In this document: piece after piece, positions 1,606 to 11,647 of the stretch
Numbering within the stretch: position 1 is the first letter of the stretch
Layout of the letters: every line of letters begins with the position of its first letter
Assembly: GCA_015062205.1 (NCBI GenBank)
Contig: SUVB01000058.1
Coordinates: forward strand, 124,001 to 188,000
Direction of reading: 5' to 3'
DNA length: 64,000 nt
From: Desulfovibrio desulfuricans
GTDB lineage: Bacteria > Desulfobacterota > Desulfovibrionia > Desulfovibrionales > Desulfovibrionaceae
Program-made: the position numbers and the translations under genes
The notes under the pieces: generated by a model
What the model was told of the DNA's origin: nothing
The model's database searches: none
Seen by the model: the letters and a program-made list of their open reading frames with translations, nothing else

Positions 1606-3243
1606 ATGAAAGAACGCTGCATCGTCATTCCCGCCATCAAGAAAAATGCCGTCATCCCCGACCAGCTCGTGAAAAAGCTGGCCGGGGTGACGCTGATTGA
1701 GCGGGCCATCCTCACGGCCCGCGCCGTGCTGCCGGGGCAGGACATTGTGGTGCTCACCGACAGCCAGGAAATATCCCTCATCTGCGAGCGCATGGGCGTG
1801 CGCTTCCACCGCAACAGCGGGCTGTGTTTCAGGGGGCTCGACATTGTGGCCGAGATGCGCGGCCTGCTGTCCGAACTGGGGCGGGAGTATGGGCACTGCA
1901 TGGTGCTGCGCGCCTCCTGCCCGCTGCTCACCTGGGTGGACGTGGAAGACGCCTGGAAGCATTACTGCCGCACGGGGGCGGACGGGCTGGTGACGGTGCG
2001 CAAGCTGCGCCACCGCCTCTGGAATTTGCGCGGCGACGGTCTTGACGGCCTGCTGGACCCGGATGAGGCCAGCCGCGCCGGCGAGAAAACCCTGGTGGCG
2101 GAAAGCCGCGCCCTGCTCATCCTGCGTCTGCCCCTTCCGGCCGACGCGGCGGCCCCCCTGACGCGCGGCCGCGTGGTTCCCTGGTTCCTGGGCGACCGGG
2201 CCATTGAGATTCAGGGCTATCAGGACTGGTGGATCTGCGAACGCCTGCTGCAGCGGCGGCATGTGGTCTTTGTGGTGGCGGGCTTTCCCGCCATCGGCAT
2301 GGGGCATGTCTTCCGCGCGCTCATGCTGGCGCACGAGATCACCAGCCACAAGGTGAGTTTTGTCTGCACGCGCGCAAGCGAACTGGCCGTGGAACGCATT
2401 GCGGAAAAGGACTATCCCATCACCCGCCAGGGGCCGGAAGATCTGGCCGACACGGTGCTGGGCATGCGGCCGGACCTGGTCGTCAACGACATGCTGAACA
2501 CGGATGCGGCCTACATGGGCCGCCTGACGGCGGCGGGCGTGCGCTGCGTCAATTTCGAGGACGAGGGGCCGGGCGCGGCGCAGGCGCGTCTGGTCGTCAA
2601 CGCCCTCTATGAGGATGCGGCCTCCACGGAGCAGCTGCGCTGCGGGCCGGAGTACTTCTGCCTGCGCGACGAATTTCTGAACGCGGCACGCAATCCTTTC
2701 CGGCCGGAAGTCAAAACGGTGCTCGTCACCTTCGGCGGCACAGACCAGTTTGACAGTTCCCGTCGCGTGCTGGACATCATTGAGCCCATCTGCCGGGGGG
2801 CGGGCATAACCGTCCGGCTGGTGGTCGGGCCGGGCTATGCTCACAGGGAAGCCATGGAGGAGCATCTGCGTCGGCTGGACAATCCCCTTGTGCAGTTCAC
2901 CTGGGCCACCAACGTCATGAGCCGTATGATGGAAGGGGCGGATCTGGCCGTCTGCTCCGCCGGGCGCACCGTGTACGAGCTGGCCCACATGCGCATCCCC
3001 GCCCTGGTGCTGGCCACGCACGAGCGCGAGGCGCGGCATACCTTCGCCCGGCCGCGCAACGGCTTCGCCTTTGTGGGCATCATGGGCCGCGTGAGCGACG
3101 TGAAAATACGCAATGTCTTTCTGGCCATGTGCAGGACACCGCGCCGCCGCCGCTTCTGGGAGCGGCAGAACAGCCTGGACTTTACGCCCAACAAGGCGCG
3201 CGTGGTGGGGCTGTTGCAGGATATCTTGCAGGAGCAGCAGTAA
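1606..3243 (+). CDS. Fusion protein: cytidylyltransferase-like domain plus PseG/SpsG-like domain
   Basis: The 545-residue protein has two parts. Residues 1-210 resemble acylneuraminate cytidylyltransferases (an LRASCPLL segment like the family's LQPTSPLR). The usual RGGSK nucleotide-binding stretch near the N-terminus is replaced by IPAIKKNAVIP, so CTP transfer is doubtful. Residues 220-545 match PseG/SpsG-like proteins of the GT-B fold: a FPAIGMGHVFRALMLA motif near the start, then NDMLNTD, VTFGGTD and a SAGRTVYELAHM signature. In related pathways PseG hydrolyses a UDP-sugar, and SpsG pairs with SpsF in spore-coat polysaccharide loci. An SpsF-like gene follows 41 bases downstream. It probably acts in making or transferring a CMP-activated surface sugar; the exact step is unknown. 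Confidence 0.75.
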   Translation: MKERCIVIPAIKKNAVIPDQLVKKLAGVTLIERAILTARAVLPGQDIVVLTDSQEISLICERMGVRFHRNSGLCFRGLDIVAEMRGLLSELGREYGHCMVLRASCPLLTWVDVEDAWKHYCRTGADGLVTVRKLRHRLWNLRGDGLDGLLDPDEASRAGEKTLVAESRALLILRLPLPADAAAPLTRGRVVPWFLGDRAIEIQGYQDWWICERLLQRRHVVFVVAGFPAIGMGHVFRALMLAHEITSHKVSFVCTRASELAVERIAEKDYPITRQGPEDLADTVLGMRPDLVVNDMLNTDAAYMGRLTAAGVRCVNFEDEGPGAAQARLVVNALYEDAASTEQLRCGPEYFCLRDEFLNAARNPFRPEVKTVLVTFGGTDQFDSSRRVLDIIEPICRGAGITVRLVVGPGYAHREAMEEHLRRLDNPLVQFTWATNVMSRMMEGADLAVCSAGRTVYELAHMRIPALVLATHEREARHTFARPRNGFAFVGIMGRVSDVKIRNVFLAMCRTPRRRRFWERQNSLDFTPNKARVVGLLQDILQEQQ

Positions 3244-3284
3244 CCTGCGGCCGACTGCCGCGAAACCGTGCATAAGGAGTGTCC

Positions 3285-3977
3285 ATGTCCGCATACGGCA
3301 AGGTCATTGCCATTGTTCAGGCCCGGCTGGGCTCCAGCCGTCTGCCGCTGAAATCCCTGCTCTGCCTGCGCGACGTGCCCGTCATCGACTGGGTGACGCA
3401 GCGGCTTGCCCAGGCCTCCCGGCTGGACGGCATGCTTGTGGCCGTGCCCGACACGCCGCTGGACGCCGTACTGCTGGAACATTTGCGCCGTCGGAATGTG
3501 CCCTGCATGGCCGGGCCCGAAAATGACGTGCTGGAGCGTTACCGTCTGGCCGCGCGGCAGGCCGGCGCCGGGCTTGTGGTGCGTGTCTGCGCGGACAATC
3601 CGCTCATCTGGGGCGAGGCTGTCGACAGGCTGGTCGATTTCTATGAACAGGGCGCGTGGGACTACGCCTACAACCACATCCCCCGGGAAAACCTCTGGCC
3701 CGACGGCCTCGGCGCGGAGATATTCTCCCGCGAGCTTCTGGAGCGCATGGCCGACGAAGCCGTGGAACCCTCGCAGCGGGAACACTGCTGCAACTACATC
3801 TGGGACAACAGGGAGCGCTTCCGCATCGGCACCTTTGACCCCGGGGAGGACTGGCTGCGCCGCCCCGACCTCAAGCTGGACATGGACTGCCCGGACGACT
3901 TCCGCCGCCTGGCGCTGCAGCCCATCCGGCCGGACATGGACGCCCGCGACATTGTGCGCCTCTTCGGGGAGGCATAG
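3285..3977 (+). CDS. SpsF-like cytidylyltransferase
   Basis: The 230-residue protein belongs to the GT-A-fold nucleotidyltransferases typified by SpsF. The N-terminal VQARLGSSRLP motif matches the family's IQARMGSTRLP and contains the nucleotide-binding GSSR. VRVCADNPLI supplies the metal-binding Asp region, and LDMDCPDDF is a typical C-terminal motif. AAGGAG at 3274-3279 is spaced correctly for ATG 3285; the GTG at 3279 in the ORF track is less likely. It follows the cytidylyltransferase-PseG fusion in the same direction and retains the motifs the fusion has lost. It may therefore be the functional CMP- or NTP-sugar synthetase of the operon. Confidence 0.8.
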   Translation: MSAYGKVIAIVQARLGSSRLPLKSLLCLRDVPVIDWVTQRLAQASRLDGMLVAVPDTPLDAVLLEHLRRRNVPCMAGPENDVLERYRLAARQAGAGLVVRVCADNPLIWGEAVDRLVDFYEQGAWDYAYNHIPRENLWPDGLGAEIFSRELLERMADEAVEPSQREHCCNYIWDNRERFRIGTFDPGEDWLRRPDLKLDMDCPDDFRRLALQPIRPDMDARDIVRLFGEA

Positions 3978-4048: not shown

Positions 4049-5464
4049 CTACAGATAGGGCGAAAAGATCCAGCAGGCGGCATTGCGCAGCTTGACGGGC
4101 AGGGGCAGGCTTTCGAGCATGCCGGCGGTGATTTCCAGGCCCCGGCTGATAGCGTGGTCGATGTGGCCGGTGATGGAGGCGTTGAACGCCGGGTCGAACA
4201 CTTCCATGTTCAGCTCGAAATTGAGGCGCAGGCTGCGCGCGTCCAGATTGGCGGAACCGATCTGGGCGTAGTAGCCGTCCACGGCCAGCAGCTTGGTGTG
4301 GGCAAAGGGCGGCGGCTGCAGCCACACGCGCACGCCTGCCTCCAGCAGTGTGGGCAGCAGGCGGAACTGCGCCCAGTGCACATAGAAAAGGTTGTTTTTT
4401 GCGGGCAGCGCCACGCGCACGTCCACACCGCGCTGCCCGGCGGAACGCAGGGCGGACACAAGCCCGTGCGAGGGCAGGAAATAGGGCGTCATGATGCGCA
4501 CGGAGGTGCGGGCCGCACTGATGACGCCGCAGTAGACGTCATTGAGAATGTCCGCGTCGGAACCGGGGCCGTCCATGATGATGCGGCAGCGGCTGTCGCC
4601 CCTGGGCAGGGAGCTTGCGGGCGGCAGGGGCGTGTAGTTGCCCGTGCAGAAGCCCCAGTTGAGCAGAAAGGCGCGTCGCAGCTGGTCCACGATGGGCCCT
4701 TCGCAGCTGAAGTGCATGTCCTGCACGTAGTTGGCCTTGCCGGCGGTCAGGTTGTCGTCTGCGATGTTCATGCCGCCGGTAAAGGCCACGCTGTCGCAGA
4801 TGAGCATTTTGCGGTGATTGCGCAGATTAATGCCGAGATTGGGCGGGAAAAGACTCGGCGGCAGGAATTGCGCCACCTTGACCCCGTACTGCGGCAGTTT
4901 CTTCCAGGGCTTGCGCAGGGAATAGAGCACGCCGATGCCGTCCACCAGCAGGCGCACGTCCACACCGCGCGCGGCGGCCTGCGCCAGGGCCTTGCTGAAG
5001 GCCTGCGCCGTCCTGCCGGCATTGAAGATATAGGTGCACAGGAAGACGTGGTCCCTGGCTTCGCGGATGGCCGCGAGCATGGCGGGATAGGCCTCGTCGC
5101 CGTTGTGCAGGGGGGTCAGGGCATTGCCGCCGCACAGATGCTGCTCCGTGAGGACGCGCCCGATGTGCTCCATGCGTACAATGCTTTCCGGCACATGCTC
5201 CGGCGGGGCCGCAGAGAAGGGCGGATGGGCGTAGTCCGGCTCCAGGGGTTCCTGACGGCGCATGATACGGCTGGCGCGGCTTTCCGCCCGGCTGATGCCG
5301 AAGCAGGCATAGAGCAGCGGCCCCACGAGCGGCAGCAGCAGCGCGGCGACCGTCCAGCCCAGGGCGGCGCGGGGATCGTGCTTGGTCAGCAGCGCGTGGC
5401 AGACCGCTATCCACGAAAGGATGTGGATGGCCAGCAGGCCGAGGGAATCAGCGACAAGAAGCAT
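4049..5464 (-). CDS. cls: Cardiolipin synthase (phospholipase D family)
   Basis: The 471-residue inner-membrane enzyme joins two phosphatidylglycerol molecules, or transfers a phosphatidyl group, to make cardiolipin. Two hydrophobic segments lie at about residues 5-25 and 33-55. Two HKD motifs follow: H217/K219/D224 in NHRKMLICD and H389/K391/D396 in AHTKLLAVD, each followed by the expected GGMN and GSANLD residues. No Shine-Dalgarno precedes the ATG. A TACTAT hexamer ends five bases before it, so a leaderless transcript is possible, although no good -35 accompanies it. The gene is convergent with the sugar operon on its left. Confidence 0.93.
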   Translation of the reverse strand: MLLVADSLGLLAIHILSWIAVCHALLTKHDPRAALGWTVAALLLPLVGPLLYACFGISRAESRASRIMRRQEPLEPDYAHPPFSAAPPEHVPESIVRMEHIGRVLTEQHLCGGNALTPLHNGDEAYPAMLAAIREARDHVFLCTYIFNAGRTAQAFSKALAQAAARGVDVRLLVDGIGVLYSLRKPWKKLPQYGVKVAQFLPPSLFPPNLGINLRNHRKMLICDSVAFTGGMNIADDNLTAGKANYVQDMHFSCEGPIVDQLRRAFLLNWGFCTGNYTPLPPASSLPRGDSRCRIIMDGPGSDADILNDVYCGVISAARTSVRIMTPYFLPSHGLVSALRSAGQRGVDVRVALPAKNNLFYVHWAQFRLLPTLLEAGVRVWLQPPPFAHTKLLAVDGYYAQIGSANLDARSLRLNFELNMEVFDPAFNASITGHIDHAISRGLEITAGMLESLPLPVKLRNAACWIFSPYL

Positions 5465-5536: not shown

Positions 5537-5959
5537 TCAGCGGCGCACCGCCAGCAGGGTTGTATCCGTATGGCGCAGAACGCGTTCGGTGATGGAGCCC
5601 AGCATCATGTCCTGCAGGCCGTCGCGCCCGTCGGTGTACATGACGATGAGGTCCGCGTTCTCCTCGTGCGCAACGCGCACGATGGTTTCCGCCACAGTGC
5701 CTTCTTCCACGCGGCAGCGGCAGGGCAGGTTCTTCTGCTTCAGCTCCGCGCCGATGGTGTTGAGCAGGGTCTGTCCCTTGGCTCTGGCGTCAGCCAGCAG
5801 GTCGGCGTGATCCTGGCCGCCGACGACCAGGGAAATGGGATCGAAAATGTGCAGCAGCACAATCTCGCCCTGCGTCAGGGGAAGGGCGCTGCGCAGGGCC
5901 GTCCGCGCCCGGGAAAGGCCGTTTTTGCCGCTGACGGGAATGAGAATGGTCTTGTACAT
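5537..5959 (-). CDS. Universal stress protein (UspA family)
   Basis: The 140-residue single-domain Usp fold begins MYKTILIPVSG and ends GSITERVLRHTDTTLLAVRR. The C-terminal glycine motif that binds ATP in many family members is present as GRDGLQDMMLGS. It is three residues shorter between the second and third glycines than the usual G-2X-G-9X-G(S/T), so ATP binding is uncertain. A good SD (GAGAGG) precedes the ATG. It lies between cls and the large sensor-like gene on the same strand and may be co-transcribed with them. Usp proteins are general stress and persistence factors; no specific partner can be read from the sequence. Confidence 0.9.
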   Translation of the reverse strand: MYKTILIPVSGKNGLSRARTALRSALPLTQGEIVLLHIFDPISLVVGGQDHADLLADARAKGQTLLNTIGAELKQKNLPCRCRVEEGTVAETIVRVAHEENADLIVMYTDGRDGLQDMMLGSITERVLRHTDTTLLAVRR

Positions 5960-6004: not shown

Positions 6005-9000
6005 TCAGCGGCGGGGCGTCAGGGCGATGCGGTTGCGCTCCACCGCCACTGCCAGCTCCGGCAGAAGATCCTGCAGCGCGTGCAGGTCTCCCGCCTTGGC
6101 CGCGCGTTCCACGCAACGGGCCATACGGGTCAGCACGCGGAAGCCGAAGGCGTCCGATTCCGCGGCGATGCGTTCCGCAGCCTCGCCCACCACAATGCAC
6201 CGCCGGTTTTTGAAGCCCTGCTGGGCGTCCTGCATGGCCGCGTCCAGGCGCGCCACAAGCTGGGGAATGGTCTGGTCGGCGTCCCCTGACGGCGTGGGCG
6301 CGGCGCGTCCGCCGCTGCCGTTCTCAGGCTGCGCGCCGCCCGTCGGCACAGGCGCGCCGACCGACGTATAGGAGGAGGGTGCCGGTTCGGGAGCCTGCAC
6401 TGCGGGCTCGGGGAGAGATTGTTCCGGCAGCGGCGGGGTATCGGCCGTCGCCGCATGCCCGGAGCCGAGAAGGCTTTCCGCCGCGCCCGCAATGAAGTTC
6501 ATGAAGGGGCTTGCCTTGCCGCCGTTCGGCGTCGTGGGCTTCTCCGCCGCCGGCGTTGCCCTGCCCGCTGCTTCTGCCGGGCCGTGAGCGGGCCTGTCGC
6601 CGGAGCTGTCCAACAGCTTGAGAATGAGCCTGCCGGCGTCGGTGTGCGGCAGTTCCGGCTCTTCGGGCCGGGAGTCTGCCGGGCGTTCGGGTCTGGTGAC
6701 AGGCATGGGCTCGCCCACCCATTCCCCGGGCGCTGTCAGGCTGGGGCTGACATAACGCGAGCGCGGCGATGCCGGGGCGGCAGGGGGCGGCGGGGCGGCC
6801 GGACGTTCAGCCTGTTCCTGCGCGGCGGCGGGCTTTGTGCCGTGCCCGACGGGCGTGCCGATGGGCATGGGCTCGCCCACCCATTCGTCAAAATCGTCGT
6901 TCCATGCATTCATGGACGCCGTGATTCCGGCAGGGCGGGGCGCGGCGTCAGCGTGACGCGGCGCGTGCGCGTTGACCGGCGTCAGCGTGGCCTCCCCTTC
7001 GCGGCGCAGCATGGCCGCAAGGCCTTTCGCGTCCGACAGGGGTTCCGGCTGCGCATTCTGCGGGGGAACGGCCTGTGGCGCAGGGGCCGCTTCTCCGGCG
7101 GACGGCGCGGGGGGCGTTTCTGCCTGCGGGGGCCACGGAAGCGGGGCACCGTTTGAGCTGTCGGCCCCGGCGGTGTCCTGTTCGGCGGGGGCCGCCGCCT
7201 GTGCGGCAGAATCCGCATCCGGGGCAAGGGCGTCATGCACCGCCTTTCCTGCAAGCGGGGCGCCGGCGGGCATTGCCGCCGTTGCGGCTTCGGCGGTGGG
7301 GCGCCCATCACCCGTTGCTTCCGGCGTCACGGGGGGGGCCGACGGGGGCTGCGGCATTGCAGGAACGTCCGGCCGGGCAGGAGCGGCGGAAGGTTCCATT
7401 TCCTGCTGCCTGTCGTCATGCGGCGGCATGGCCGCGACGGGAGCCTCCCCTGCTTCGGGCGTGTCAGTCCCGTCCCAGTGCGGGCCGTCCATGCCTGCCG
7501 CCGTCAGGAATTCTTCCGCCACGGCGTCGCCGCCGTACGGCGCGCCCGCGTCTGCGGACGGGGCCGTTTCCCCGCTGTTTATATGTTCCGGCACCTCGGG
7601 CGCGGCCGCAGGTTCCACGGGCGCTTCCGCATCCATCGGAGACGCGGGCCCGGCCGCCCCCGGCAAAATGGCCGTCTCCATCGGGGCGGCGTGTCCCTGC
7701 GCGGGGAGCGTGCCGGTCGCGACAGCGCGTGCGGGCTCCTCTTCAGCCGTCACGCCCATGCTGAGCGGTCGGAAAAAGGCAGCATCATCCGGTTCGGCGG
7801 CGGGCTGCCCCGCGGGAACGTCAGCATCGGGCCCGGTCGGGCGGATGTCGGGCATTGCGCCGGGCTGCGCAAAGGGGGACGTGCCGAAAAGATCGGGCAG
7901 CGGCTCCGCCGGGTGGGCCTCGGGCAGCGTTTTCGTGACCGGGTTGCCGTCGGCTGCTTGCGCCCGGGCGTTGTCGGCGGGGGCGGCCAGACCGGCCTCG
8001 TCCAGCACTTCACGGACAGTGGCGGCGAAGGCCTCGGCGTCCACGGGTTCCAGCAGGGCGTGCGTATAGCCCCTTTCAGCCAGGGAATCCCACTGGCTGT
8101 CATCCGTCGTGACGGCGAGGGCCTTGAAGACGGGCAGGCCCGACTGCATGGCTTCCGCCTCAAAACGGCCCAGCGCGTCGCCTTCGGCAGGGGTATTGTG
8201 CGCGGGCTGGGCCACGACCATCATGGCCGGAGCCTCCCTGTTGCATTGCAGCGCCTCGTGCATGCTGCGCGCTTCCGTGCTGCGGCAGCCCAGGGACGTG
8301 ATCATGCGGGCGAGCGTCTGCCGGGTCACGGCGTTGTCCGCCACGACGGCGATGGTGGGCCGGCGGCGCGTTTCCGCGTCTGCTGCCGGCTCCTCTGCGG
8401 CCTCCAGCGGCGTGAGATGCAGGGTAAAGGCAATGGATGCGCCCTGCGGTCCGCATTCCACGGTGAGATAGCCGTTGTTGGCTCCGGCCAGTTCCCAGGC
8501 GCGGGTCAGCGCCAGTGAGGAGCGTCCGCGCGGGGGAATGCCGGAACCGGTGTCGGTCACGGTGAAGAGCAGATGCCCGGGATCGGCGCTTTCCGGCACG
8601 CGCCGCACGGAGAGGTGCACGGCCCCGCGCGTGGTGGCGCGGACGGCGCTTTCCAGCAGCAGGTCGAGCGTTTCGCGCAGGGCCTGAACCTGCCCCTCGT
8701 ACATGTGTCCCAGCAGGGGCGGCATGTACCAGGCAATGCCTATGCCCGCGTTTTCCGCCGCAGGGGCAACGCTGTCATGGGCCTCACGCACAAGGTGCTG
8801 CAGGTTGAAGGCCGTGCGTTGCTCGTTTTTGCGCGCCTGTTCCTGCGTTTTGCCGGGATTGTCGATGAGCTGCGCCATTTCCCCGGCGGCGGCGAGCATG
8901 TTTTCGGCGTATTGGCGCACCGCCGGCGGCAGGGAACAGCCGCCGAGGGCGGCGCCTTCGCGCATGAGGCGGTCAAGAGGCGGCCGCAGCAGGTTTTCCC

Positions 9001-10384
9001 ACGCATGGATGTCTGCTGCGGGCGCAGTGTCCGTCGGGCGCGGCGCGCTGTCTGTGGGCGGCGTGGCGGCAACGGGGGGCAGCAGGCGCAGATTGGGATC
9101 GTCCAGGGGCTGATCAAGGGTAATGGGCGCGTCGTCCATGCCGGCGCTTGTCAGCACGGCGTCCAGTGAAAGCGCTCCCTGGGGCGTCGCGGCGGAAGTC
9201 TGCGCGTCATTTTCCCGCACGGCGTCGCGGGGAAGGCCCGTGCCCGCGATGAGCAGGGCGCTGAGGGCCGTGCCCCACAGCGGGGCCGACGCCAGCAGTT
9301 CCGGGGCAAAGCCGTAATCCATGCCCAGAATGCCCGCCGCCGTGAACAGCGGGGGAATGAGGCAGCCCAGCAGGAAGCGGCGCGCGCCGCCGAAGCCCAT
9401 GACAGCCCCGCACAGGGCGGTGAACGTAAAGATGATGGTGCATGCGGGCCAGAGGGAAAGGTAGCGGATGGTCCAGCCGAAGCCGGGCAGAAGGGGCAGC
9501 AGGGCCACAACCGCGCCGGGCAGGGTGAGCAGCATGAACTGCGCGTCCAGCAGGCGCGAGCGCCCCCTGGCGCGCAGCAGGTGACGGCCCACATGGGGCA
9601 GCAGCATCAGGGCCAGCCCCGGGCTCAGCACGGCAGCGGCCTGCCCCGACGTGATGCCGCCCGAGCCGTACGCGGGCATGCCCAGGAAGCCCTGCACCAA
9701 GGCCATGCCCACATACAGGGCCGTCCAGATGCGCCACTGGCCTTTTTCGGAGAGCCAGCGCAGCAGGCACAGCAGCATGACGACGCCCAGGGCCAGCAGG
9801 GCGGCCTTGCCGGAAAGCCCCGCCCAGTCGGAGGCGGCATTCTGGGGCGTGCGCAGCATCGGCGCGAACCAGATGCCGGGCAGGCCGTCAAGGCGGATAT
9901 AGCAGGTGCGGGCTTCAGGCCCCGACTCGGGGAGCAGCAGCAGGTTACGGTCTCCGGGCGCGGTTTCGCGCCATTCGAGGCCTTCCGTGACGGGGTTGAG
10001 ACGCGGTTCGTAAAGAACCGGGCCTGCGGGCGCATCCTGCCCCAGATCAAGAAGCAGGGCCTGCGGGCGGCCTCCCTCCGGCAGGGGGGCGAGGGTGAAG
10101 CGCAGCCACGTGACGCCCACCACATCGGGCAGCCCCCTGACGTCCAGGGGGCGGAAGGAGGAGGCGTTGGCGGGGGTGGCGATTTCCTCCACATCCATCG
10201 TGCCCGTCACGTCGATAAAATATTCCAGAAGGGGCTGCAGGGGGGTGCTGGGCGCGGCGGGCGCAGACGGCAGCATGCCGCCGCAGGCTGTCGCGGGCGC
10301 GCTGCAGTGAAGGCAGGCAAGGCACAGAAAGAGCATGCAGGCCCGCAGCCATACGCGGGCAATGCCGGAGGGGGTCGTCGTCAT
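6005..10384 (-). CDS. Very large 7TM hybrid sensor-kinase-like protein with degenerate phosphorelay sites
   Basis: From ATG 10384 (AGGCGG eight bases upstream) the protein is about 1459 residues. It has, in order: a signal peptide; an extracytoplasmic domain of the 7TMR-DISM type; seven or so membrane helices (about 190-400); a dimerisation/ATPase region (about 480-680); a receiver-like domain (about 690-810); some 500 residues of Pro/Ala-rich linker; and a helical C-terminal HPt-like segment. The ATPase G1 box VTDTGSGIPP is present. By eye, the usual HE-x-R-T-PL helix reads NLLRPPL (no His), the N-box reads LLESAVRAT (Asn lost), the receiver DD reads AD and its acceptor Asp reads A (MMVVAQP), and the HPt His is missing. 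The linker carries EWVGEPMP twice. It looks like a pseudokinase signalling scaffold. An earlier ATG at 10426 is possible. Confidence 0.75.
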   Translation of the reverse strand: MTTTPSGIARVWLRACMLFLCLACLHCSAPATACGGMLPSAPAAPSTPLQPLLEYFIDVTGTMDVEEIATPANASSFRPLDVRGLPDVVGVTWLRFTLAPLPEGGRPQALLLDLGQDAPAGPVLYEPRLNPVTEGLEWRETAPGDRNLLLLPESGPEARTCYIRLDGLPGIWFAPMLRTPQNAASDWAGLSGKAALLALGVVMLLCLLRWLSEKGQWRIWTALYVGMALVQGFLGMPAYGSGGITSGQAAAVLSPGLALMLLPHVGRHLLRARGRSRLLDAQFMLLTLPGAVVALLPLLPGFGWTIRYLSLWPACTIIFTFTALCGAVMGFGGARRFLLGCLIPPLFTAAGILGMDYGFAPELLASAPLWGTALSALLIAGTGLPRDAVRENDAQTSAATPQGALSLDAVLTSAGMDDAPITLDQPLDDPNLRLLPPVAATPPTDSAPRPTDTAPAADIHAWENLLRPPLDRLMREGAALGGCSLPPAVRQYAENMLAAAGEMAQLIDNPGKTQEQARKNEQRTAFNLQHLVREAHDSVAPAAENAGIGIAWYMPPLLGHMYEGQVQALRETLDLLLESAVRATTRGAVHLSVRRVPESADPGHLLFTVTDTGSGIPPRGRSSLALTRAWELAGANNGYLTVECGPQGASIAFTLHLTPLEAAEEPAADAETRRRPTIAVVADNAVTRQTLARMITSLGCRSTEARSMHEALQCNREAPAMMVVAQPAHNTPAEGDALGRFEAEAMQSGLPVFKALAVTTDDSQWDSLAERGYTHALLEPVDAEAFAATVREVLDEAGLAAPADNARAQAADGNPVTKTLPEAHPAEPLPDLFGTSPFAQPGAMPDIRPTGPDADVPAGQPAAEPDDAAFFRPLSMGVTAEEEPARAVATGTLPAQGHAAPMETAILPGAAGPASPMDAEAPVEPAAAPEVPEHINSGETAPSADAGAPYGGDAVAEEFLTAAGMDGPHWDGTDTPEAGEAPVAAMPPHDDRQQEMEPSAAPARPDVPAMPQPPSAPPVTPEATGDGRPTAEAATAAMPAGAPLAGKAVHDALAPDADSAAQAAAPAEQDTAGADSSNGAPLPWPPQAETPPAPSAGEAAPAPQAVPPQNAQPEPLSDAKGLAAMLRREGEATLTPVNAHAPRHADAAPRPAGITASMNAWNDDFDEWVGEPMPIGTPVGHGTKPAAAQEQAERPAAPPPPAAPASPRSRYVSPSLTAPGEWVGEPMPVTRPERPADSRPEEPELPHTDAGRLILKLLDSSGDRPAHGPAEAAGRATPAAEKPTTPNGGKASPFMNFIAGAAESLLGSGHAATADTPPLPEQSLPEPAVQAPEPAPSSYTSVGAPVPTGGAQPENGSGGRAAPTPSGDADQTIPQLVARLDAAMQDAQQGFKNRRCIVVGEAAERIAAESDAFGFRVLTRMARCVERAAKAGDLHALQDLLPELAVAVERNRIALTPRR
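6690..6900 (-). repeat. Duplicated EWVGEPMP peptide motif in the linker of the pseudo-hybrid kinase
   Basis: The octapeptide EWVGEPMP is encoded twice, about 155 bases apart, at roughly 6705-6728 and 6861-6887. The contexts are PGEWVGEPMPV and DEWVGEPMPI, inside an otherwise low-complexity Pro/Ala-rich linker. The shared DNA, CATGGGCTCGCCCACCCATT, is nearly identical in both copies. Conserved short motifs in disordered linkers often dock partner proteins; that role is inferred. Confidence 0.7.
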
Positions 10385-10495: not shown

Positions 10496-11272
10496 TCAGC
10501 GCAGCGTCCTGAGTATGTCGGAAACGGGGCGGCCGTCCGGGGCGCGCGCGGCGGGGTTGACCGCCAGCAGGCGCTGCCAGGCCTTCATGGCGTCATCCTT
10601 GCGGTGCAGATCGAAAAACAGCACCACACCCTCGTTGAACATGGCGTTCTCGTGGCGGGGATTGACGCTGGAAGCCCGGCGGAAGTTCGCTACGGCCTTT
10701 TCAAACTCGTCCAGTTCGCGGTACATGATGCCGAGATCCGTCAGCACGTCGGCATTGTCCGGCGCGAGGGCGAGGGAGCGTTCATAGGCGGAGGCCGCCT
10801 TGCGCGGCTGGCCCGTGTCAAAATAGAGATTGCCCAACTCCGTCCAGGGGCGCGGATTGCCGGGCTCCTGCAGGACGGCCTGTTCCAGACCGGCGATTTT
10901 GGCGGCCAACTCTGCGGGGATGGGCGGCTGCCGGTCCGGCGCGGACGGCTGCTTCGGAGGTTGTGCGGGCGCGGACGGCTGCGCGGGAGGTTGCGTGGAC
11001 GGGGCCTGCGCCGCAGCCTGCGGGGCGGGGGCCGGTGCGGTTCCCGGCGCGGCGGTTTCCGGCGCGGATGCGAGCCTCGGGGGGATGAGGCTGCCGACAA
11101 AGAGGCCCAGCACCAGCGCAAGCCCCACACTCAAGAAGAAGACGCTTTTGCTGATGCCGTCCGTTGCGGACGTCGCGGGAGAGAGTTCCACCGGAGAGGA
11201 GGGACAGGCGGCGGGCTGTGCGGCCGCAGATGCGGTATCGGAAGGTTTTTTCTTGCGTTTGTCGCTGGCCAT
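10496..11272 (-). CDS. Membrane-anchored tetratricopeptide repeat protein
   Basis: From ATG 11272 (GAGGA four bases upstream) the protein has 258 residues. A polar Lys/Ala N-terminus precedes one membrane helix at about 45-65 (SVFFLSVGLALVLGLFVG). A Pro/Ala/Gln-rich linker follows to about 125, with short repeated units such as QPSAPAQPP. Three TPR units then run to the C-terminus (WTELGNLYFDTGQ, ADVLTDLGIMYREL, NAMFNEGVVLFFDL). TPRs bind proteins, so it probably scaffolds an assembly on the periplasmic side. It lies 112 bases upstream of the pseudo-hybrid-kinase gene on the same strand and may be transcribed with it. The longer ORF in the track has a non-protein-like N-terminal extension. 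Confidence 0.8.
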   Translation of the reverse strand: MASDKRKKKPSDTASAAAQPAACPSSPVELSPATSATDGISKSVFFLSVGLALVLGLFVGSLIPPRLASAPETAAPGTAPAPAPQAAAQAPSTQPPAQPSAPAQPPKQPSAPDRQPPIPAELAAKIAGLEQAVLQEPGNPRPWTELGNLYFDTGQPRKAASAYERSLALAPDNADVLTDLGIMYRELDEFEKAVANFRRASSVNPRHENAMFNEGVVLFFDLHRKDDAMKAWQRLLAVNPAARAPDGRPVSDILRTLR

Positions 11273-11647
11273 GAAATCCTCGTATACGGGCGTGACCGGA
11301 GTCTGGAATTCACAGCCTACAACCGGAGGGCAAAAGAGGCAAGTCCGCGTGTGGCGGGCGCGGACGGGAGAGCGCTGCCGCGCAGCTTCCCCTGCCTGCG
11401 CGCCCGGCCATGCCCTTGCAGCCGCCGGGCAACGGTTTGCCGAAGCTGCATGCCCCGGCATCGGGCCGGGGAGCATGCAGGAAGTCAGCGCGGGTTGCGC
11501 GGATTGCGAGCGGGCACAGGCGAACGCGGCGCGGCCCGGAGGCCGGCGAAGACCGTGCGGGCCGTCAAAGGCGGAAAGCAGGCCGCCGGTGACAGGCATG
11601 GCCGGCAGGGGGCTGCCGGCGGCAGCCGCGTGGCCTCTGCAGGGGCG
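11273..11647. other. Non-coding gap between serS and the TPR gene
   Basis: This 375-base gap has no credible gene. It holds an imperfect GC-rich hairpin near 11446-11484 (CTGCATGC arms around a CCGGC stem), which may end the serS transcript, though no U-tract follows it. The promoter of the TPR gene should lie close to 11280-11340, but I see no convincing hexamers. Confidence 0.4.

Follow-up and report, generated by a model that had tools for sequence, protein, structure and literature searches.

RetS and DivL are, by analogy, the closest functional precedents for the protein described here. RetS of Pseudomonas (6dk7/6dk8/7n0e) has the domain order DISMED2-7TM-DHp-CA-REC and no G-boxes; it does not autophosphorylate but inhibits GacS autophosphorylation via its core, it keeps a DHp phosphatase Thr and the REC2 Asp, and one of the three mechanisms described for it is phosphate-independent (PMC5992135). 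The Caulobacter pseudo-histidine kinase DivL (4q20) functions without kinase activity and is an example of a kinase fold put to another use (PMC4211667). It carries a conserved Tyr in place of the His, retains the N, G1, F and G2 boxes and lacks a 7TM region, REC or HPt. Besides a kinase fold kept after the loss of catalytic residues, RetS/DivL-like pseudo-histidine kinases are defined by a second trait, signalling through binding another two-component protein. In the Sinorhizobium 7TMR-DISMED2 receptor RgsP, which is paired with the envelope partner RgsM, the N-terminal sensory part is essential whereas enzymatic output is not (PMC6107284). RgsP has a cytoplasmic PAS-GGDEF-EAL part and no kinase ancestry, and serves as a precedent for a 7TMR-DISM protein whose sensory part and envelope partner outweigh its enzymatic output. 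The Caulobacter hybrid kinase ShkA (6qrj) is itself active. In RcsD (YojN) a degenerate kinase core precedes a C-terminal HPt, which is active. To our knowledge, the pseudo-histidine kinases described in bacteria, RetS and RcsD among them, retain some working phosphotransfer part.

Here we compare with these systems a protein encoded in a window of 64,000 nucleotides from Desulfovibrio desulfuricans (contig SUVB01000058.1, positions 124,001 to 188,000), whose genome comprises 2.65 Mb. No paper on this locus was found in the open-licence literature. A first-pass annotation of the letters had described an open reading frame of about 1459 residues with the domain order of a hybrid kinase. The frame proved to be exact and lies on the minus strand (Table 1), and profile, ortholog and fold evidence bear out the order. 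Anatomy, residue losses, stepwise decay and purifying selection, as read from sequence comparison and structural models, indicate that the whole His-Asp-His relay of a 7TMR-DISM receptor has been turned into non-catalytic folds. We consider it probable that this pseudo-hybrid histidine kinase has been fixed as a phosphate-independent transmembrane receptor or scaffold with output via its pseudo-REC and pseudo-HPt.

Table 1. Features of the pseudokinase locus, in window positions.
Feature	Position	Strand	Evidence
Pseudo-hybrid histidine kinase CDS, 1459 aa	6005..10384	-	ATG at 10384; orthologs
7TMR-DISMED2-type periplasmic sensor domain, residues 53-147	9944..10228	-	PF07696 weak here; all-beta in model
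7TM region, residues 188-400	9185..9823	-	PF07695 in orthologs; helices in model m92dbb452f27e
PHVGRH family signature, end of TM3, H264 and H268	9581..9598	-	Family versus outgroup comparison
DHp-like helices, residues 455-515	8840..9022	-	Alignment; PDB profile matches to RetS, ShkA
CA/HATPase-like domain, residues 516-665	8390..8839	-	PF02518 in orthologs; alignment with intact-kinase relatives
Pseudo-receiver, residues 676-800	7985..8359	-	Alignments; profile matches to receivers 7qz2, 3hdv
Ala/Pro-rich linker, residues 801-1371	6272..7984	-	Variable length, weakest constraint
Pseudo-HPt four-helix bundle, residues 1372-1459	6008..6271	-	PF01627, AlphaFold, Foldseek, intact-HPt alignment
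TPR protein gene, upstream partner	10496..11275	-	Pfam, synteny
Downstream neighbour gene (presumably universal stress protein, UspA-type)	5537..5959	-	Synteny in genus
Further downstream neighbour gene (presumably cardiolipin-synthase-like, PLD family)	4049..5464	-	Synteny in genus

The protein consists, in this order, of a 7TMR-DISM sensor, a DHp/CA kinase core, a REC domain, a linker and an HPt-type bundle. Residues 1-27, which precede the DISMED2-type domain, look like a signal sequence. Pfam signals in the window copy are faint for 7TMR-DISM (DISMED2, E = 0.012) and just below the cut-off for HATPase_c. Among relatives, DISMED2 was positive in 26 of 32 members (best 5e-10), 7TMR-DISM_7TM in 9 of 32 orthologs (best 5.5e-8), HATPase_c in 28/29 orthologs and Hpt in 20/33 members. 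The pairing of a DISMED2 periplasmic domain with 7TM_DISM that defines a 7TMR-DISM protein is therefore recognized via the orthologs, the window copy lying below the Pfam cut-off. The linker, put at 500 residues by the first-pass annotation, is indeed long but measures 571 aa (A 22%, P 18%), and ranges from about 50 to 840 aa across orthologs.

Searched against the PDB, the kinase-core profile matched ShkA (6e-17) and RetS (5e-16) as well as GacS and DivL, and the receiver part matched stand-alone receivers. AlphaFold modelled 773 residues with a pLDDT of 87 and the HPt part (101 residues) with a pLDDT of 88. Foldseek grouped the core with the same four proteins, ShkA being the best match in both profile and fold. 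The C-terminal bundle has the four-helix fold of an HPt domain: its top Foldseek match is HptB (7c1i; TM 0.79, rmsd 1.1) and the HPt of RcsD (1sr2) ranks third, with E-values that are weak because the domain is small. The sequence profile of the pseudo-HPt found no true HPt in the PDB, whereas the fold search did. In its degenerate core followed by a C-terminal HPt fold the protein resembles RcsD; with RetS it shares the order from DISMED2 to REC and a CA domain predicted to be unable to autophosphorylate, but its ATP lid is deleted and a pseudo-HPt is added on the long linker.

The motif PHxGRH is near-fixed across the family, including members with an intact kinase (L106-L120 compared); outgroup 7TMR kinases are without it, and likewise without H264. 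Its histidines are possible metal or heme ligands. The single Cys of the periplasmic sensor, C161 (9902-9904), is shared by 32 of 34 same-genus orthologs and could be redox- or heme-related.

To follow the relay residues, the window protein was aligned with 35 same-genus orthologs. The phospho-His of DHp corresponds to N464 (codon 8993-8995), in a column that holds N, D, E, S, A, G, K or Q and His in 0 of the 32 same-genus sequences having it. The phosphatase Thr of HxxxT is P468, and no aligned same-genus sequence has Thr at this position. The N-box Asn is replaced by S579, with Ser in 29 of 31 sequences (one Asn, L045; one Asp, L054), the G2 box reads SSLAL (622-626), and alignment with intact-kinase relatives shows that all degenerate members have a deletion of about 20 residues that removes the entire F-box/ATP lid. 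The receiver carries Q726 (codon 8207-8209) as phosphoacceptor, the column being Q, H, R, A, C, E or L and Asp in 0/35, and E779 for the Lys (Glu in 25/35). The HPt phospho-His column, confirmed by aligning intact HPts from this genus and its relatives, contains E1404 (codon 6173-6175) here and His in no aligned family member. The G1 box DTGSGI (611-616) is kept, with D611 in 31/32, as is the REC Thr T759 (34/35).

The first-pass annotation had thus correctly recognized the replacement of the phosphoacceptor His, the N-box Asn, the receiver acceptor Asp and the HPt His, and the ortholog alignment that it had suggested, with about 35 same-genus sequences, restores neither the kinase His nor the REC Asp nor the HPt His. 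It was mistaken in taking the second Asp of the receiver DD pair as lost: the pair is A682/D683, in which the first acid is gone and the second is still Asp here and variable in orthologs. Its statement that only the G1 box survives holds for G1 but misses T759, and the loss extends beyond the sites it listed, since the lid, G2 and the HxxxT Thr have disappeared too.

A hybrid histidine kinase (HisKA-HATPase_c-REC-HPt) has a DHp His, an ATP site, a REC Asp and Lys and an HPt His; here G1 alone is left of the ATP site and the others are absent. The phosphatase Thr and REC Asp that RetS uses on GacS are likewise missing (P468, Q726). The kinase fold is kept and its catalytic residues are lost, as in other pseudo-histidine kinases, and the replaced His and a fold apparently repurposed to function without kinase activity are shared with DivL. 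With no lid, N box, His or Asp, the core is without the requisites of any known phosphate-transfer route. A relay in which phosphate travels via unusual residues is very unlikely: although 11 of 35 orthologs have His at the REC acceptor position and H536 and H775 are frequent, the acceptor columns are scattered (N/D/E/S/A/G and Q/H/R/A/C/E), and the loss of the ATP lid and N box leaves such a relay no phosphate source.

Conservation is distributed unevenly over the protein. The C-terminal half of the pseudo-receiver (AITxDDSQWDxLAxAGFTHALLEPV) is conserved and its acidic pocket degenerate. Mean column identity is 64% in the pseudo-HPt, compared with 50% in core plus REC and 46% in the sensor. 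Few columns of the bundle are less conserved than the one that once held the phospho-His, and charged residues of helices 3-4 are near-fixed (R1416, R1420, E1426, D1433, D1439, E1443, E1449, R1450), which suggests that the working surface of the pseudo-HPt may have shifted off the receiver-docking face. In plants, AHP6 is a decoy HPt that damps a phosphorelay. A tethered pseudo-HPt that docks receivers and accepts no phosphate would act similarly, and the retained HPt fold and Pfam match, the missing His and the status of the bundle as the best conserved module, which outlasts the others, fit this idea. We nevertheless regard it as improbable, as much of exposed helix 2, the receiver-docking site on known HPts, is poorly conserved together with the phospho-His column, and conservation is concentrated on helices 3-4.

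All 36 sampled same-genus relatives contained a match, one of them a contig-edge fragment alone, and in a second sample each same-genus genome had exactly one copy. The named relatives that the sensor profile detected belong almost entirely to Desulfovibrio, D. piger among them; Desulfovibrio sp. A2 and Mailhella are more distant. Independent genomes show the same layout, and an assembly or frame error was rejected on this ground. A 2962-aa ORF in L115 (L115:2377-11262) was considered as an N-terminal fusion; its upstream part holds masked bases read as X, and its length was therefore not interpreted.

Using NG86 on close pairs and ignoring pairs with saturated dS, we obtained dN/dS values of 0.04-0.4 in the sensor, kinase-like and receiver-like domains, 0.03-0.18 in the pseudo-HPt and 0.23-0.57 in the linker. 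Judged from these comparisons, the phosphorelay-dead receptor is fixed and under purifying selection throughout Desulfovibrio, and this selection is strong in every folded domain. The progressive loss of catalytic residues and of whole modules might be expected of a pseudogene on its way out, an explanation to which we give next to no credence: the frames in same-genus genomes are open at 742-1970 aa, the gene block is conserved, and dN/dS well below 1 in close pairs together with the universality of the gene rule it out. The earlier suggestion of selection for a non-phosphorelay role, such as a scaffold or allosteric receptor, gains support from genus-wide fixation and from dN/dS well below 1 in every domain, and also from the folds in confident models, from independent module losses sparing the sensor and HPt-like bundle, and from conserved gene partners.

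The family reaches other genera of the Desulfovibrionaceae. In two members of the sister genus g17, L113 and L114, the kinase (VSHDLRTPL, LLGNAVRFT, full lid, GLGL) and the receiver (ADD, D, K) are both intact and score strongly in Pfam, but the HPt is already without His. L117 and L118 of g17 combine an intact kinase with a degenerate receiver, and L119 has lost the kinase core. The Nitratidesulfovibrio-type sequences L107-L111 (including Desulfovibrio sp. A2) and Mailhella L186 and L188 have a dead, lidless kinase and keep the REC Asp in the motif MDGDMP/LDGHMP, which shows that decay from an active kinase ancestor was stepwise. Members from Desulfovibrio have lost the phosphotransfer residues of kinase, REC and HPt alike, and the outgroup 7TMR hybrids L065, L121, L122 and L124 have an intact kinase core. 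Since shared canonical motifs in the kinase columns could bias the tree, it was redone on sensor columns alone; g17 falls outside all dead-kinase sequences with a support of 100 (sensor plus core) and 78 (sensor alone). Trees and residue states together indicate that the HPt His is absent family-wide, that the kinase core, on the simplest reading, was inactivated a single time on the branch leading to the remaining members, and that the receiver was inactivated several times. Orthologs with canonical residues, which the first-pass annotation had named as evidence against its reading, are lacking within the genus and present in the sister genus (L113, L114), and thus date the loss rather than refute it.

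Among sequences uncut by a contig end, DHp and CA are deleted in L061-L063, L174-L176, L178, L179 and L185 and separately in L119, CA and REC in L057/L161 (742 aa), and DHp in L056, L058, L146 and L149. All these lineages retain the sensor and the HPt-like bundle. The sensor is present in every family member and the bundle in nearly every one; it was not found in L120, L157 and L138, of which L138 and L157 lie away from a contig end.

These deletions bear on the question of whether the DHp/CA pseudo-core, like that of RetS, heterodimerises with another histidine kinase and blocks or biases it. Both proteins belong to the same architecture class (7TMR-DISM with a degenerate CA), RetS ranks near the top of the profile and fold matches, its core inhibits GacS without kinase activity of its own (PMC5992135), and other HATPase_c proteins are encoded in the genome. 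However, mechanisms 1 and 2 of RetS require the REC Asp and the HxxxT Thr, both absent here, so that the phosphate-independent mechanism alone could apply (PMC5992135), and the loss of DHp and CA in several lineages that still hold the gene in place makes it unlikely as a common denominator. We therefore consider such an antagonist rather unlikely. The common denominator is the sensor together with, bar a few exceptions, the HPt-like bundle, which favours a phosphate-independent receptor or scaffold.

A same-strand TPR gene lies immediately upstream in 30 of 33 same-genus loci and also in five other lineages (g17, g21, g33, g26 and Mailhella); an adjacent TPR gene is absent in L115, L116, L120 and a termite-gut subclade. 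The TPR protein has one predicted TM helix and, according to Pfam, a CcmH/CycH(CcmI)-like TPR domain, which is likely periplasmic given the N-terminal basic segment and single hydrophobic helix. In 22/33 same-genus loci the TPR-pseudokinase pair comes after ccmF, ccmC and another TPR gene, which form a System I cytochrome c maturation cluster. This ccm-tail arrangement is seen in L035-L038, L040, L041, L043, L050-L053, L061-L063 and others. The linkage does not extend to the whole genus; in the sublineage to which the window belongs, the pair has moved behind serS, with the TPR partner still present. The UspA-like and cardiolipin-synthase-like genes are the usual downstream neighbours in the genus. 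A scan for promoters gave no match, and the coding strand has no terminator-like site in the TPR-to-kinase or kinase-to-usp gaps, both of which are weak evidence. Two plus-strand genes beside the cardiolipin synthase gene (1606-3977), kept in the closest relatives alone, resemble nonulosonic-acid/CMP-sugar or spore-coat-polysaccharide type enzymes. In the intact-kinase genus, the gene next after the kinase encodes a TetR-type regulator (L113:5283-5861, L114:4378-4959, L118:4788-5363).

For the phosphate-independent receptor or scaffold we propose that a periplasmic cue, probably read jointly with the single-TM TPR protein of the adjacent upstream gene, would alter the conformation of the 7TM receptor, which, like RgsP, may work with an envelope partner. 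The change would be relayed without phosphate by protein contacts of the pseudo-core, with further contacts made by the pseudo-receiver, through its conserved C-terminal half, and by helices 3-4 of the long-tethered pseudo-HPt, and the protein would act as a scaffold or allosteric receptor in the membrane. Its gene neighbourhood suggests that it may report on envelope or c-type cytochrome biogenesis. It counts against this proposal that the TPR gene is not an obligate neighbour, that the HPt-like bundle is not universal and that the ccm linkage is partial. Only tentatively do we suggest the more specific scenario in which, in the Desulfovibrionaceae, the whole phosphorelay was converted stepwise to a phosphate-free receptor with a new output surface on pseudo-HPt helices 3-4, and the CcmI-like TPR protein is its periplasmic co-receptor reporting on c-type cytochrome biogenesis.

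All three relay modules of this protein are dead, yet selection persists, and living relatives show the intermediates, with the HPt alone dead, HPt and kinase dead, or everything dead. The order of decay and the role of a phosphate-free signalling fold would therefore be directly open to experiment in culturable sulfate reducers from the gut and the environment.
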